64,000 nucleotides of DNA from Candidatus Cybelea septentrionalis (GTDB taxonomy: Bacteria; Vulcanimicrobiota; Vulcanimicrobiia; Vulcanimicrobiales; Vulcanimicrobiaceae), in contig PMHJ01000034.1 of assembly GCA_003158175.1 (NCBI GenBank), positions 40,776 through 104,775 of the forward strand, given 5' to 3'. The notes under the pieces were generated by a model, which saw only the letters and a program-made list of their open reading frames with translations, was not told the origin of the DNA and did not search any database. Below are positions 31,731 through 40,472 of the stretch, one piece after another (positions within the stretch are counted from its first letter, which is position 1; each line of letters starts with the position of its first letter). The position numbers were made by a program, and so were the translations under genes.

Positions 31731-32794
31731 TAAGATACGGTGTTTCGTGTCAATGGCTTGCGTAGGTAGGGTCGAAGAGCTTACCCGACTTAAGCACACC
31801 GTAGGCGAGAGTTAAGAGCTTACGCATGACGGCTGTGATGATAGCCATGTTAGATTTACGGCGCTCGCGCAGTCGATCGGCAAAACGGCGAAGCAGAGGA
31901 TTGTAGCGCATAGCTGAGATCGCCGGAAAGTACGGCGCAGTGCGCAAGTTAGCGTTGCCGGTCTTGGCGATGCGGCTTGGTCGGCGAATCGATCCCGATT
32001 CGTAATGGCGAGGTGAGAGGCCAGCGTACGCGGCGACGGCCTTGACGTCGCGAAACTCGGCGATGTTCGGCATCTCACCTAAGATGCGAGCGGCCGTCGT
32101 CTCTCCGATGCCAGGAATTGACGTGAGCAGATCGCGCTGCCGGCGCAGCGGCGGATAGTGCTTGAAGAGCTGCTCGATTTCGTGATCGACCCGCTCGATC
32201 TCGCGATCCAGGTGGGTGAGCGTCGCTTTGATCGAAGCCTTAACCACCGAGGTGATCATGGGTGCTTGGAGCCGGTTCTGCACCTCTGTACGCATCTGAA
32301 TCAAACTCTGATATCGACGAACGAGCCCCTGTAGCATGCGGATTTCCGGCGCGGGAGGCACCCACGGCTCTGGCGCGTGCATTCGGCAAAACCGCGCAAT
32401 GAGAGCCGCGTCGATGCAGTCGGTCTTTGTCCGCAGCATCTCACTCCGAGCAAACGCCTTGATGCGGGTAGGGTTAACGAGGCTGACGACGTGGCCGGCC
32501 TTGTGCAACACAAGCGCCAGATCTTCGCTCCAACCGCCGGTGGCCTCGAGACACACGTGCACCCTCTCAACTTTGCGATTGCGCAACCAGGTTTGCAACT
32601 GCTTGAAACCGGTTGCCGAATTGGCAACGCTCCTCGATGTTGACCGCTCATGCTGCAGCAGAACCGCATGCATCTCGTGCTTTCCGACATCGATGCCTAG
32701 GATCTCCACAATCACCTCACTCGCCGGGCCGGCTACCCTACGCGACCACCCTGATGCATACAGGCTTCGCGACGTACGCGGCCTAAGATACGGT
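31731..32794 (-). mobile_element. IS110-family insertion sequence (tentative limits)
   Basis: The intact IS110 transposase gene is flanked by an 11-bp direct repeat, TAAGATACGGT, at 31731-31741 and 32784-32794. IS110 elements lack terminal inverted repeats and use a bridge RNA encoded beside the transposase. Only about 70 bases lie between the gene start and the right repeat, so the true right end may extend further. The repeats may mark the element's core and target sequences. Confidence 0.6.
31750..32715 (-). CDS. IS110-family DEDD transposase
   Basis: 321 residues, apparently intact. The RuvC-like domain starts EILGIDVGKHEMHAVLLQ, followed by VCLEATGGWSEDLA and TKTDCIDAALIARF, giving the D-E-D-D set. 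A coiled region and the Tnp20 domain follow (LTSIPGIGETTAARILGEMP, then AAYAGLSPRHYESG). These enzymes use a structured RNA to pick donor and target DNA. The start is GTG 32715 or GTG 32709. Confidence 0.92.
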   Translation of the reverse strand: MIVEILGIDVGKHEMHAVLLQHERSTSRSVANSATGFKQLQTWLRNRKVERVHVCLEATGGWSEDLALVLHKAGHVVSLVNPTRIKAFARSEMLRTKTDCIDAALIARFCRMHAPEPWVPPAPEIRMLQGLVRRYQSLIQMRTEVQNRLQAPMITSVVKASIKATLTHLDREIERVDHEIEQLFKHYPPLRRQRDLLTSIPGIGETTAARILGEMPNIAEFRDVKAVAAYAGLSPRHYESGSIRRPSRIAKTGNANLRTAPYFPAISAMRYNPLLRRFADRLRERRKSNMAIITAVMRKLLTLAYGVLKSGKLFDPTYASH

Positions 32795-33194: not shown

Positions 33195-34154
33195 TTACAC
33201 GACGGGCTCTTTCCGCAGAGTCCCCACAGTCACGTGAGGCCAGCTCAATCCGGCAAAGTTCAGCAGGACGATCTGAGTGTATTGCAGCTGGAAGAAATCG
33301 GGCGCGCCTTCGATCAGCTCGATCCAAAACGTCGCGCTGACGACGGCGGCGTCGGCGTTCGGGCCCGACCCCGGGGCGCCCTGAAGGAACGCCGTATTCG
33401 CGACGCCTCCGCCGGGAACGGGCGTGGAGTCGGTTGCGATGATCAACGTCGTGGTCTGCTTGACGGTCTTTCCGGCGAGCGCGGCTCTCAGTAATGAGTT
33501 CGGGCTGTTAACGGTATCTTGTGTGATGCCTTTGAGCAGCGGGTCCGGCGTACGAAACGCGTCCGGTTTGCTGAGGTTCAGATTGTCCTGAAACGTCGAT
33601 ATGAGCTTATTGGACGGCTGTCCGATGGGAAACGGAAAGAGATCGTTATCGGCGATCACGGGACCACCGGGATGCTGGAAAGCCGATCCTTGTGCGAGGA
33701 TCGCCGTTCCGTGTGGAATCGAGGCCATGCGCAGGACCGTCGGTATCTCAGTTGGATTGGTCGTTTTTGGAACGACCGCCCAAATGCCGGGCTCGAAATG
33801 GAGGCCGCTCTTCGCCGGATTGGCGATGTTCGCGTCCGAGATCTTTTGCAGATAGCTCACGCCGAACATGACGATGTCGGGCTGGAGCAGTCCGCGGTTG
33901 GGAATCTCTCCGGGTATCCGTTCGAAAAGAATGCCGTCGTTCGTTCGATTCAACTCGAGGAAGTGGTCGGACTGCGGCGTGCTGTTTGGGCGCCAGATAC
34001 AGTTGAACCCCTCGCCCACCCACTGCGCCGACTTGTCAGGGTCGAAAAGGAAGTCGTGGAGCGGGCCGAGATCGCCGTCTATCCCGGGAAACGGTGGCTC
34101 GGGCTTCGTAATGTCCGGTGCCGGCGGGAAGATAAAGTCTTGATTAAGCGTCAT
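33195..34154 (-). CDS. Nitrobindin-like putative heme-binding protein
   Basis: 319 residues, no signal peptide. The sequence follows a family often annotated as heme-binding protein: WVGEGFNCIWRPN near residue 45, FLELNRTNDGILFERIPGEI, NRGLLQPDIVMFGVSYLQ, LHFEPGIWAVVPKTTNPTE and RMASIPHGTAILAQGSAF. The early GxGFN and later His-containing strands fit a beta-barrel resembling nitrobindin/THAP4. Heme binding itself is inferred. It is divergent from the GH1/GMC oxidoreductase operon and shares a CTAG-rich intergenic element with it, suggesting co-regulation. Confidence 0.55.
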   Translation of the reverse strand: MTLNQDFIFPPAPDITKPEPPFPGIDGDLGPLHDFLFDPDKSAQWVGEGFNCIWRPNSTPQSDHFLELNRTNDGILFERIPGEIPNRGLLQPDIVMFGVSYLQKISDANIANPAKSGLHFEPGIWAVVPKTTNPTEIPTVLRMASIPHGTAILAQGSAFQHPGGPVIADNDLFPFPIGQPSNKLISTFQDNLNLSKPDAFRTPDPLLKGITQDTVNSPNSLLRAALAGKTVKQTTTLIIATDSTPVPGGGVANTAFLQGAPGSGPNADAAVVSATFWIELIEGAPDFFQLQYTQIVLLNFAGLSWPHVTVGTLRKEPVV

Positions 34155-34255: not shown

Positions 34256-36472
34256 GTGACCTTGCGCGCTCTAGGTAAGAAGGCTACGCACCCCGCGCTG
34301 CCGCCCGACTTCCTCTTCGGCGTGGCGACGGCCGATCATCAGTGCGAAGCGTATAACGGCCAAGACGACATCCGCGACGTTTGGGAGCGCGTCCGCGAGA
34401 TGCAGCCGCGGCTACGGGCTACGGAGTTCTGGACGCGGTATCCGGAAGACGTTCGGCTCGCGCAAGGGCTCGGCTGCAAGGTCTTTCGCTTGTCGCTATC
34501 CTGGGCTCGATTGGAGCCCACGCGGGGCGCTTGGGATGCCGCGACGGCGCAGCACTATCGCGACGTGCTGAAGTGCATTCGCGCAGCGGAGATGAAAACG
34601 GTGGTGACGCTGCATCACAACACCTGGCCGGTGCACGTGCAGGCCGCCGGCAAGGGCGCAGGAATGCTCGATGACGACTTTCCGGCGTGCTTCGCCGAAT
34701 ACGCGCGCAACGTCGCGCGCGATCTGGGCGACCTCATCGACTACTACGTTACGATCAACGAGCCAAATCAGCTCGTGTACGGCTACATCAAGGCGTGGTG
34801 GATGCGATCGTATGCGATGCCTCCCGGGCTCGAACCGCTGGCGAGCGAGCAGGATCAGATGAGCAAAGTGCTTACGCTCATTCCGAACCTTTTTCGCGCG
34901 CACGCGCTCGCTAAAACGGCAATCCAAAATCTGCGTCCCGCCTCGATGGTCGGGAGCAATCCGTTGGTGCTGGGCTTACCCCGGTTTTTGCGCCGGCTCG
35001 TCGACTTCTGGGCCGCACGCGTGACCTCGCCCAATCTGCGCCTCCAACACAAAATGTTTTGGCAGGAACAAGCCTTTGGCCTCGGCCGCGTGGATCTCTC
35101 CATCGCACAGCTCACGCTCACTCCCGAACGCGCCGGCAAAGTTCTGTTCTCCGAGTCGTACTTTGCGGCGCACTTGTGCTTGCTGTACATGGCGGATCGT
35201 TCGCTGCCGCAGCCCCCGGCATCGTGGCAGGGCCGCATCGGCGTCACTGTGGGGACGGCGCCGGCCGACGAGGCAGCATCGTATTTTCCCAAGGCAACGG
35301 TCGAACGCTATTCGCAGACGGCCGACGCGGTTGCGGCGCTGCGGCGCCGAGAGATCGACGCCGTCTTCGACGACGACGTGTTTTTGCGACCTTTCGCCGC
35401 ACCCGATCTTCGGCTGGACGCCATACCTGCGCCCGATCAACCCTTTGCGATCGCGATGGCGCTCGGCAGCCGCAGCCTACTCAATGCCGTGGATTCCGCG
35501 TTGCGTCAATTCAAACGGCGAGATCCCGTGACGAACCAATCTCCGTGGGACGCGGCGATGTCGGCGGCGTTTCCGGGAGCGCACGGCGACCCGCCCAATC
35601 TCTACAATCGGAAGACCGTCGCCAACGTCGGCCGCTCGACCGCGCCTTTGCCGCCTGTTTCGCAAATCGCCGGAATGGACGGAGCGCTGGACGCGATTCG
35701 GCGGCGCGGTGAACTGCGCGTTGGCATCCATCCCGGCGTTCCGGGCCTCTGCATGGAGGAGGCGGGGGAGTTCGTGGGACTCGAACCGGCGCTGACGCGA
35801 TACATCGCCGGCCAAATTCTCGGCACGGCGACGCCGCATGTGGAGTTCGTTGCGCTCGACCTGGGCGAGCGGGTCACCGCATCGCGCTCGCAGTTATGGT
35901 TCTTAGAGCCGCTGCGCAAGACGCTGTCGATGCTCACCACGATCGCCGCTGCCGACTGGTGGCACCTCGGAATGGCCGGGAAGCTGCCGAAATTCCTCTG
36001 TCCTCCCGAGTGCGTCGGCAAGCTGGATTTCGTGGGAATCGATTACTATTGGGGATTCGACAGCGTCGCGGCGGCATTGCGTCTGCCCAACGCGATGAAC
36101 TTCCAGTACGCCGGCGCGCCGGTCTTTCCGGGTGGTCTGTACGACCTCTTGGTTATCGAGCACGAGCGTTTTCCCGATAAGCCCATCTTGGTTATCGAAA
36201 ACGGCTGCGTCACCGTTGCCAGCGGCATGGAACGCGCGGATTATCTCTCTTACCACGTAGCGGAGCTGCAACGCGCCGTGCGCGAGCGCGTACCGGTCAG
36301 GGCGTATCTCTGCTGGAGCATCACCTCGAACCGCGAGTGGGGATTGCGCTTCAACGACAACAGCGATTTCGGTCTCTATCATATAGCACTCGACGCCGAT
36401 CCGTCGCTGACGCGAGACTCTACGCCGGCCAGCGCGCGCTACGGCGAAATCATCTCCGGGAGGTCTGCGTAA
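34256..36472 (+). CDS. GH1 glycosidase with inserted, circularly permuted solute-binding domain
   Basis: 738 residues from GTG 34256, supported by GGAG six bases upstream (the frame is open to 34199 but that overlaps the promoter element). Residues 12-256 are the first half of a GH1 barrel (PPDFLFGVATADHQCEAYNG, acid/base Glu169 in TINEPN). Residues about 278-419 match the second part of an SBP_bac_3 domain (VDLSIAQLTLTPERAGKVLF, IGVTVGTAPADEAA, EIDAVFDDD). After a linker, residues about 477-543 match the first part of the same domain (ALDAIRRRGELRVGIHPGVP, EFVGLEPALTRYIAG). GH1 then resumes (WWHLGMAGKLPKF, DFVGIDYYWG), with nucleophile Glu648 in VIENG and a WSITSNREWG loop. No signal peptide. 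The GMC oxidoreductase follows after one base. Confidence 0.8.
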   Translation: MTLRALGKKATHPALPPDFLFGVATADHQCEAYNGQDDIRDVWERVREMQPRLRATEFWTRYPEDVRLAQGLGCKVFRLSLSWARLEPTRGAWDAATAQHYRDVLKCIRAAEMKTVVTLHHNTWPVHVQAAGKGAGMLDDDFPACFAEYARNVARDLGDLIDYYVTINEPNQLVYGYIKAWWMRSYAMPPGLEPLASEQDQMSKVLTLIPNLFRAHALAKTAIQNLRPASMVGSNPLVLGLPRFLRRLVDFWAARVTSPNLRLQHKMFWQEQAFGLGRVDLSIAQLTLTPERAGKVLFSESYFAAHLCLLYMADRSLPQPPASWQGRIGVTVGTAPADEAASYFPKATVERYSQTADAVAALRRREIDAVFDDDVFLRPFAAPDLRLDAIPAPDQPFAIAMALGSRSLLNAVDSALRQFKRRDPVTNQSPWDAAMSAAFPGAHGDPPNLYNRKTVANVGRSTAPLPPVSQIAGMDGALDAIRRRGELRVGIHPGVPGLCMEEAGEFVGLEPALTRYIAGQILGTATPHVEFVALDLGERVTASRSQLWFLEPLRKTLSMLTTIAAADWWHLGMAGKLPKFLCPPECVGKLDFVGIDYYWGFDSVAAALRLPNAMNFQYAGAPVFPGGLYDLLVIEHERFPDKPILVIENGCVTVASGMERADYLSYHVAELQRAVRERVPVRAYLCWSITSNREWGLRFNDNSDFGLYHIALDADPSLTRDSTPASARYGEIISGRSA

Positions 36473-36473
36473 C

Positions 36474-38192
36474 ATGGACGAACGCTTCGATGCCGTCGTC
36501 ATCGGTTCGGGTTTTGGCGGTTCCGTGATGGCCTATCGGCTGGCGGCAGCCGGAAAACGCGTCTGCCTGCTCGAGCGCGGAAAGCCCTATCCGCCGAACT
36601 CCTTTGCGCGCACGCCGTTCGAGCTGCGCAACAACTTCTGGGATCCCAGCGAGCAACGATACGGACTCTTCAACATCTGGTCGTTTCGCGGGATGGCGGC
36701 AATCGTCTCGGCCGGCCTTGGCGGCGGCTCGCTGATCTACGCCAACGTCTTCATTCGCAAGGACGCCAGTTGGTTCGCCGATCCCCTCCTCGGCGGAGCG
36801 GGCACGTGGCCCATCACGCGCGGAGACCTCGATCCGCACTACGATGCAGTGCAAGCCGTCGTGCAGCCAGAGATCTATCCGAGCAGCTATCAGTTCGACA
36901 ACAAGACGTCGGCGATGCGCGCCGCGGCCGCGAAGCTCGGCATCGCGCAGACCGACGGGGACGGAGATCCCTCCAAGCCGCAGTGGTACCTGCCCCACCT
37001 CGCCGTCACGTTTACCGAACCGGGCGCCGACACCGCGCGGCCGGGCCGCGTGTTCGATCAAGGGAACAACTATCACAAGATGCCGCGCGAGACGTGCCGG
37101 CTGTGCGGCGAGTGCGACGTGGGCTGCAACTACGGTGCGAAGAACACGATGGATTACACCTATATCACGCTCGCGCAGGAAGCCGGCGCGGATATTCGGG
37201 CGCTCTGCGAGGTCAAAGAGTTCGCGCCGTCGCCCGAGGGCGGCTACCGCGTGAGCTACGTCGCGCACGACATCGAGAAAAAGACGACGCCTGGGATTTT
37301 GCCGGTCGGTGAAATGGTGACGCTTCACGCCGATAAGCTGATCGTCGCGGCGGGCACGTTAGGGAGCACGTATCTGTTGCTGAAGATGCGCCGGCAAGGT
37401 CTGCTCCCCGATTTGAGCCCACGGCTGGGTTCGCGCTTTTCGGGCAACGGCGATCTGTTGATGTTCGCCTCGCGCTGCACCGAGGCGGGCGGGCGGCCTG
37501 TCCGTCTCAACGCGTCGCGCGCGCCGGTCATCACTAGCACGTTTCGCTTTCCCGACGGCGAGGACGATGGCGGAGCCGAACGCGGCCTTTATTTGCAGGA
37601 TGCCGGTTATCCGTTGGCGGTGGATTACATCTGGGAGATGCTCGATCGCGGACTGCTTCCGCGCGCAGCCGCCGCGGCGTGGGAGTTCGTCAAAACGGAG
37701 TTTACCGGCGACGTGCGCGCCGAGATCGACCGGCAGTTGGGAACGGCGGTCGGTGAGGGAACACTCTCGTCGACGTCAATGCCGCTCTTGGGCATGGGAC
37801 GCGACCTGCCCAACGGCGTGATGTCGGTCGCCGACGATCCGGCCACCGGCGTTCCGCTGCTGCAGTTGCGGTGGGACGACGGTCCGTCGAAAGGCTATCT
37901 CAAGGGCGCGATGCAACACGGACGCGACGTCGCGGGCGCGCTGGGTGGGTCGTTTGCCGAGAATCCGCTGACCCGGCTCTTCAACGACCTCATCACCGTC
38001 CATCCGCTCGGCGGCTGTCCGATGGGACGGTCGAGCGACGACGGCGTGGTGAACGAACGCGGCGAGGTTTTCAACTATCCCGGGCTGTACGTGGCCGACG
38101 GATCGGTGCTGCCCGGTCCCGTAGGCGCGAATCCGAGCTTTACGATCGCCGCCGTCTCCGATCGGATCGCGAGCTTCATGATGGAGGGTTAG
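36474..38192 (+). CDS. GMC/cholesterol-oxidase-like FAD oxidoreductase
   Basis: 572 residues. The N-terminal FAD dinucleotide site is FDAVVIGSGFGGSVMAYRLA. A GLGGGSLIYANVF strand follows, then a Cys-rich insertion CRLCGECDVGCNYGAKNT of the type seen in ferredoxin-like or cholesterol-oxidase-type members. The C-terminal catalytic region has HPLGGCPMG, NYPGLYVADGSVLPG and NPSFTIAA. It probably oxidises an alcohol group, possibly on a sugar or aglycone released by the GH1 enzyme one base upstream (inference from coupling). No Tat or Sec signal is seen. Confidence 0.88.
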   Translation: MDERFDAVVIGSGFGGSVMAYRLAAAGKRVCLLERGKPYPPNSFARTPFELRNNFWDPSEQRYGLFNIWSFRGMAAIVSAGLGGGSLIYANVFIRKDASWFADPLLGGAGTWPITRGDLDPHYDAVQAVVQPEIYPSSYQFDNKTSAMRAAAAKLGIAQTDGDGDPSKPQWYLPHLAVTFTEPGADTARPGRVFDQGNNYHKMPRETCRLCGECDVGCNYGAKNTMDYTYITLAQEAGADIRALCEVKEFAPSPEGGYRVSYVAHDIEKKTTPGILPVGEMVTLHADKLIVAAGTLGSTYLLLKMRRQGLLPDLSPRLGSRFSGNGDLLMFASRCTEAGGRPVRLNASRAPVITSTFRFPDGEDDGGAERGLYLQDAGYPLAVDYIWEMLDRGLLPRAAAAAWEFVKTEFTGDVRAEIDRQLGTAVGEGTLSSTSMPLLGMGRDLPNGVMSVADDPATGVPLLQLRWDDGPSKGYLKGAMQHGRDVAGALGGSFAENPLTRLFNDLITVHPLGGCPMGRSSDDGVVNERGEVFNYPGLYVADGSVLPGPVGANPSFTIAAVSDRIASFMMEG

Positions 38193-39626: not shown

Positions 39627-40472
39627 AGGCGCCATGCCATTTGGCCCGTTGCTACGCAATGCCGCGTTCTGAACGCCTCGGTCAGCGTGTATTATGCGTG
39701 GCTCAAGCGTCCTACGTGCGAACACGCGTGCGCCGATATCGCGATTGGAGACGCGCTGGAAGTATACTTCGAACGCTCGCGTTCAACGTATGGCCGGCCA
39801 CGCCTCGCCGGCGACGTACGCGATGCTGGTATTCGGACGAGTGAAAAACGGCTAGCGCGCCTCATGCGGGAACGCAATATTCATGGAGCAAGCCGCCGTA
39901 AAGGCTTCAAGACCACCGTTCGCGATCGCGATGCCCGACCTGCCCCCGATCTGGTCGATCGCAACTTCTGCACGCCTGCCTCTGACAGACTCTGGGTGGC
40001 CGATATTACGTACGTTCCGACATGGAGCGGGTTCTTGTTTCTGGCCGTCGTGCTCGACGTCTTTAGTCGGCGCATCGTCGGTTGGGCGATGGCGAGACAT
40101 CTACGTACAGAGCTCGTCCTCGACGCCCTTGAGATGGCGATCCATCAACGAAAACCTACGGCCGTGATTCATCAGTCAGACCAGGGATGTCAATACACAT
40201 CGATCGCGTTTGGCAAACGGTGTAACGAAGCCGGAGTCCAGCCATCGATGGGATCGGTTGGCGACTGTTTCGATAACGCGATGTGCGAGAGTTTCAATGC
40301 GACGCTGGAATGCGAGCTGCTCGCCACGCGTCGGTTCAAGAATCAGCACGAAGCTGCGCTGGCGGTCTTCGATTTCATCGAGGCTGGTACAATCCGCATC
40401 GCCGCCATACCTCGATCGGAAACATCTCGCCAGCAGAGTACGAACGGCGGAATCAAGCCGCCTGATGTTTAA
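39627..40472 (+). pseudogene. IS3-family OrfB (DDE integrase), frameshifted
   Basis: From about 39687 one frame gives YYAWLKRPTCEHACADIAIG and the DDE core: DITYVPTWSGFLFLAVVLD (first Asp), HQSDQGCQYTS (second Asp), GDCFDNAMCESFNATLE (Glu). Near 40385 the frame is lost; the expected ending YNPHRRHTSIGNISPAEY lies in the next frame and stops at 40465. Upstream, CRVLNASVSVYYAW and FEFVKA are also in different frames. The enzyme is therefore probably inactive. Confidence 0.8.

Follow-up and report, generated by a model that had tools for sequence, protein, structure and literature searches.

The window analyzed here is a 64,000-nucleotide stretch on contig 3 of a 3.19-Mb metagenome-assembled genome of Candidatus Eremiobacterota. 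It carries a gene whose product reads as a family 1 glycoside hydrolase (GH1) interrupted by the two parts of a solute-binding protein (SBP) in reversed order. Is this arrangement real, and what would a ligand-binding clamshell do inside a glycosidase?

A GH1 enzyme with a nested binding domain

The initial annotation had proposed an open reading frame with two GH1 halves enclosing an SBP insert of two segments, and profile searches confirmed this. On the window protein, the Pfam GH1 profile PF00232 matched in two stretches (138.9 bits, cut-off 22.6, 2.2e-40), and SBP_bac_3 (PF00497) matched residues 276-421 between them (5.8e-9). With NCBIfam, the whole protein matched TIGR03356 (beta-glucosidase) and TIGR01096 (amino-acid SBP), both under their own cut-offs. 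The two catalytic glutamates, described earlier as remaining, were found in the motifs TINEPN (E169) and VIENG (E648). Profiles, homologues, an empty insertion site, and a structure model together strongly support a permuted SBP nested in a GH1 enzyme with intact catalytic residues. The features of the gene are the following:

34199: possible alternative upstream GTG start
34256..36472, + strand: GH1 with nested permuted SBP, 738 residues, GTG start at 34256
34295..35071, + strand: GH1 N-terminal part, residues 14-272, beta1 to beta5 and the following helices (PF00232, model, continuity with homologue L124)
34760..34762, + strand: E169, GH1 acid/base (TINEPN), present in 33 of 33 full Eremiobacterota forms
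35072..35575, + strand: SBP segment 1, residues 273-440, the normal second part of an SBP (profiles, model)
35129..35131, + strand: R292, counterpart of R169 of Mycobacterium tuberculosis GlnH, a ligand backbone contact (alignment)
35168..35431, + strand: SBP lobe 2, residues 305-392, absent from short forms (homologue comparison)
35372..35374, + strand: D373, counterpart of GlnH D250, in 29 of 33 full forms
35576..35674, + strand: variable linker, residues 441-473, connecting the native C terminus of the SBP to its native N terminus (lowest conservation)
35675..35878, + strand: SBP segment 2, residues 474-541, the normal first part, beta1 to beta4 (profiles, model)
35870..35872, + strand: R539, at the permutation junction, counterpart of GlnH R147, which contacts the ligand side chain (invariant)
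35879..36469, + strand: GH1 C-terminal part, residues 542-738, beta6 to beta8 (PF00232, model, L124)
36197..36199, + strand: E648, GH1 nucleophile (VIENG; invariant)

The binding domain is permuted within lobe 1

Putting the window insert in normal order joined its two partial SBP_bac_3 matches into one continuous match of 45.5 bits, covering profile positions 1-118 of 132. The same insert scored 36.2 bits in native order (cut-off 26.4) and 40.1 bits as two pieces. In the homologue L120, the un-permuted domain reached 93.5 bits over positions 1-130, while its own order gave 82.9 bits in two stretches; once un-permuted, it also matched the glutamate-binding protein of Enterococcus faecium (5eyf) over its whole length (4.7e-42). 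The reversed order of the segments, as first proposed, was thus borne out. The proposal that the domain is permuted at its hinge did not hold, however. Segment 1 contains the end of alpha2, beta5, lobe 2, and the return to lobe 1, both interlobe hinge crossings are intact, and the chain is broken inside lobe 1, at the junction of beta4 and alpha2. A permutation at the interlobe hinge is therefore ruled out.

The fused form is widespread in Eremiobacterota and occurs in a second phylum

A full-length paralogue, 55% identical, is encoded on another contig of the same genome. Relatives with the same segment order are 46 to 60% identical over their full length; 52 of 149 Eremiobacterota genomes matched at an E value of 1e-20 or below, the majority encoding the full-length form. 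Another phylum, which is probably Chloroflexota, has the same form in four genomes, where it is 50 to 56% identical to the homologue L050. In every fused homologue the second SBP part precedes the first, the reverse of the usual SBP_bac_3 order. The initial annotation had taken homologues in normal order as the sign of an assembly rearrangement. Metagenome-assembled genomes can be misassembled, but the reversed order in the paralogue and in dozens of separate genomes rules out such an artifact, which would be exceedingly improbable. Among the plasmid records searched, no match covered 80% of the query.

Some loci deviate from the common form. One open reading frame of the second phylum (L097, 9226-10041, contig 196 of genome G349) consists of SBP segment 2 and the GH1 C-terminal half only, 52% identical to L050. 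Its partner half was not found in that genome, and it may be a remnant, a split gene, or a chimeric contig. In L057 (6800-8782, contig 58 of genome G009), the frame changes between the GH1 N-terminal half and the remainder, and either gene decay or a sequencing error may account for this. In two further proteins (L051, 6791-9106; L052, 2021-4375), tens of additional low-complexity residues follow a conserved GLC in SBP segment 2; they look like an in-frame translation of a palindromic repeat element.

The insert sits between beta5 and beta6 of the barrel

A GH1 relative from the second phylum (L124, 467 residues as called) has no insert and represents the empty site. Its GH1 domain is 54 to 56% identical to those of L120 and L123 and 47% identical to that of the window protein, and at the position of the SBP in the fused forms its sequence is uninterrupted (VARRT-AAKKALHSLLG). 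Because L124 is continuous through this junction, the insert corresponds to about residues 273-541 of the window protein, give or take a few, and these roughly 270 residues lie in the connection between beta5 and beta6. The SBP is also lacking in more distant GH1 relatives (L125 to L127). Two of these, L127 (2960-4504) and L125 (6556-8127), carry SBP-free extra residues of their own at the same position, suggesting that the beta5-beta6 connection may be prone to insertions.

An AlphaFold2 model of the full-length window protein, built with 42 homologues, had a mean pLDDT of 88.6 and a pTM of 0.88. The GH1 fold is kept in the model (Z of 43.2 over 384 residues, 2.6 A, to Thermotoga maritima 2j7h by VIA-align). 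By visual comparison with the GlnBP topology, which we take as the reference, the secondary-structure order of residues 276-541 fits a permuted type II SBP. The matches listed in the fold search were GH1 structures, which filled the list, and SBP structures were absent among the matches listed. Placing the insert on the barrel's active-site face was considered and withdrawn, since alignment with ordinary GH1 enzymes puts it in the alpha5 region. Junction 1 enters the strand beta5 that carries the ligand-contact counterparts Q285 to R292, and junction 2 leaves just after R539, seven residues before the GH1 helix 546-560.

Ligand-contact positions are conserved, and a gated enzyme is proposed

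M. tuberculosis GlnH touches its ligand through S164, R169, and D250 at the backbone and through R147, T162, and W232 at the side chain (PMC6069109). By alignment, their counterparts in the window protein are T287, R292, D373, R539, Q285, and T355, respectively; T287, R292, D373, and R539 are kept, while T162 is replaced by Q285 and W232 by T355. None of the 33 full Eremiobacterota forms lacks R292, and 8 of the 9 short forms, those without lobe 2, have it as well. R539 is found in all 42 rows of our alignment (33 full and 9 short) as well as in the four forms from the other phylum, and Q285 is kept in every short form. L120 has a near-canonical pocket (Arg, Thr, Thr, Arg, Tyr, Asp), with a tyrosine in place of the tryptophan as in 5eyf and Campylobacter jejuni PEB1a, and a lysine where PEB1a also has one. 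The SBP is probably of the aspartate/glutamate-binder type. Glutamine occupies position 285 in the Eremiobacterota forms, and most of them no longer have an aromatic residue at 355, so their ligand may differ or bind weakly. Pairwise omega ranged from about 0.02 to 0.18 for GH1, from 0 to 0.32 for the lobe-1 pieces, and from 0.13 to 0.33 for lobe 2. These values, well below 1 throughout, indicate that all regions, lobe 2 included, are under purifying selection. No leader sequence was seen by eye, and the family proteins start near the GH1 start (e.g., MRPFPPxFRFGVATADHQ).

The explanation we favor, which stands about even between right and wrong, is a cytosolic beta-glycosidase gated allosterically by a ligand resembling an acidic amino acid. 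The protein would act in the cytosol, as no signal peptide was seen, as a retaining GH1 enzyme with the permuted amino-acid SBP in its beta5-beta6 connection. Both junctions would wire lobe 1 to the barrel, leaving lobe 2 as the free lobe. The ligand closing lobe 2 onto lobe 1 would be an acidic amino acid or a related small acid that carries an alpha-amino group. Because lobe 2 is the free lobe, closure would act beside the junction helices, and their shift would change barrel activity or substrate access. Such control is plausible because the ligand-contact residues are conserved and located at the junctions.

Lobe 2 is absent from several lineages

Exactly lobe 2, residues 305-392, is missing from nine proteins in three genera, with the chain cut at both hinge strands (between VLFSEPY and YAVAMALGSR). 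Four changes in the state of lobe 2 are needed in our tree, at least three of which are required by well-supported branches; a smaller tree requires at least two. L035, a full form of genus g21, has the short forms L053 and L055 as its sisters, which points to repeated loss of lobe 2, with the direction of change inferred. A model of L053 (pLDDT 76) brings the hinge strands next to each other (E291-298 and E304-309), which we read as a hairpin. Lobe 2 is also the least conserved part of the SBP domain (40% mean identity). As lobe 2 is gone in at least three lineages that keep lobe 1, the clamshell is not always needed, and its repeated absence argues against an obligatory clamshell sensor.

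The main rival to allosteric gating, which we consider less likely, is that lobe 1 is a fixed structural or substrate-recognition module, such as a wall of the aglycone site or an oligomer interface, with the arginines binding an acidic group of the substrate or making internal salt bridges and lobe 2 being an optional remnant. The losses just described are what such a module would allow, and lobe 1 is better conserved than lobe 2. The lobe-1 arginines are retained despite the repeated absence of lobe 2 (R539 in 9 of 9 short forms, R292 in 8 of 9, along with Q285), supporting a role of lobe 1 in its own right. Yet most members hold a lobe 2 under purifying selection, and D373, a residue with a role only in the closed clamshell, is kept in nearly all full forms.

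Loss of lobe 2, together with an insert that evolves faster than GH1, would also fit a neutral insertion that is tolerated and slowly decaying and has no function of its own. We find this improbable, given that pocket residues are invariant across two phyla and omega is well under 1 in every part. In addition, L124 is the only uninserted relative branching near the fused forms, its placement in the tree being tentative.

Less probable still is a protein with reduced GH1 catalysis serving mainly as a sensor or binding scaffold. In its favor, the motif LNYY on beta6 has aspartate (D596) for the usual asparagine throughout the family, the uninserted sisters among them. Against it, every one of the 33 full Eremiobacterota forms retains both catalytic glutamates together with the glucose contacts Q29, H121, N168, W687, E694, and W695. 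The acid/base (NEP), the nucleophile (ENG), and the glucose-site residues are likewise kept in all four forms from the other phylum. The short form L092, from the same record as L032 and with low coverage and ambiguous residues, has an alanine at the position of E169.

Oxidoreductase genes adjoin the fusion gene

The gene lies in the window among the following neighbors:

31750-32715, - strand: IS110-type transposase, flanking the heme-binding-like/GH1-SBP/GMC region
33195-34154, - strand: FMP-type heme-binding protein, divergent neighbor (NCBIfam, 224 bits, cut-off 150)
36474..38192, + strand: GMC oxidoreductase, cholesterol-oxidase-like, one base downstream of the GH1-SBP gene
39687-40472, + strand: IS3-like integrase-core open reading frame, flanking the same region

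The one-base gap to the GMC oxidoreductase gene, pointed out in the initial annotation, is real (stop codon ending at 36472, start at 36474), and the two genes are likely co-transcribed. The divergent neighbor had been called nitrobindin-like; instead, it matches the NCBIfam model "heme-binding protein, FMP" and no nitrobindin model, and no Pfam match was found for it. The stretch between the IS110-type and IS3-like frames may be a mobile or rearranged neighborhood. A GMC partner was found at only three of the family loci examined, namely, the window, L075 (same strand), and L085 (opposite strand), which rules it out as a general partner. In most Eremiobacterota loci, about 30, a divergent SDR dehydrogenase gene adjoins the fusion gene within about 100 bases (e.g., L054, 6489-7241, - strand). 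The SDR neighbor is 69 to 92% conserved and was not found in the four loci of the other phylum. Its divergent position at this distance suggests a shared control region. SDR and GMC enzymes both oxidize alcohols, so oxidation of the released sugar or aglycone would fit. No ABC permease or ATPase recurs as a neighbor at the family loci; the recurring partners are only SDR or GMC enzymes.

Relation to known systems and significance

The window protein shares the barrel fold, the catalytic glutamate pair, and the minus-one-site residues with GH1 beta-glucosidases (T. maritima 2j7h/1od0, Paenibacillus BglB 4hz8) but differs by the 270-residue permuted SBP between beta5 and beta6 and by the LNYY substitution. 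The best whole-length matches of the un-permuted L120 domain were aspartate/glutamate SBPs (5eyf, GlnH 6h1u, PEB1a 2v25). Like these, the family keeps the backbone-contact residues and the counterpart of R147; unlike them, its domain is permuted and nested in an enzyme with no signal peptide seen, and the side-chain pocket is altered in Eremiobacterota. The lytic transglycosylase MltF likewise uses an amino-acid-SBP fold, an SBP_bac_3-type module, as the regulatory part of a glycan-cleaving enzyme, and its SBP module (6hqh) was among the matches. In MltF, however, the domains are arranged end to end, in normal order, and in the envelope, whereas here the SBP is nested and permuted and the enzyme is a GH1. 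The family could be another case of an SBP fold reused as the sensor part of a different protein, with a hypothetical regulatory role.

Searches of the open literature, of incomplete coverage and weak as evidence of novelty, returned no matching paper on natural permuted SBPs, GH1-SBP fusions, or MltF. We regard the architecture as established and, within the reach of these searches, undescribed. Engineered switches pair maltose-binding protein with beta-lactamase or yield fluorescent sensors (PMC6335823, PMC3265398). As in GH1-SBP, binding protein and output domain are nested there, often via permuted termini. Those switches are artificial, however, and usually hold the output domain inside the binding protein, whereas in GH1-SBP the permuted binding protein lies inside the enzyme. 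The family resembles, in natural form, the ligand-controlled enzyme switches made by engineers, and it bears on the open question of how often evolution permutes and nests binding proteins as engineers do.

Returning to the ligand-gated reading, we tentatively suggest that a natural one-chain switch couples the intracellular level of an acidic amino acid to glycoside hydrolysis and that several lineages may have fixed one of its states by excising lobe 2 at both hinges. L124 without the insert, the full permuted clamshell in dozens of genomes, and the lobe-1-only forms in several lineages appear to make up a comparative series. The proteins look soluble and of ordinary size, and each step, from inserting and permuting a sensor to losing it, could be examined in them in turn.
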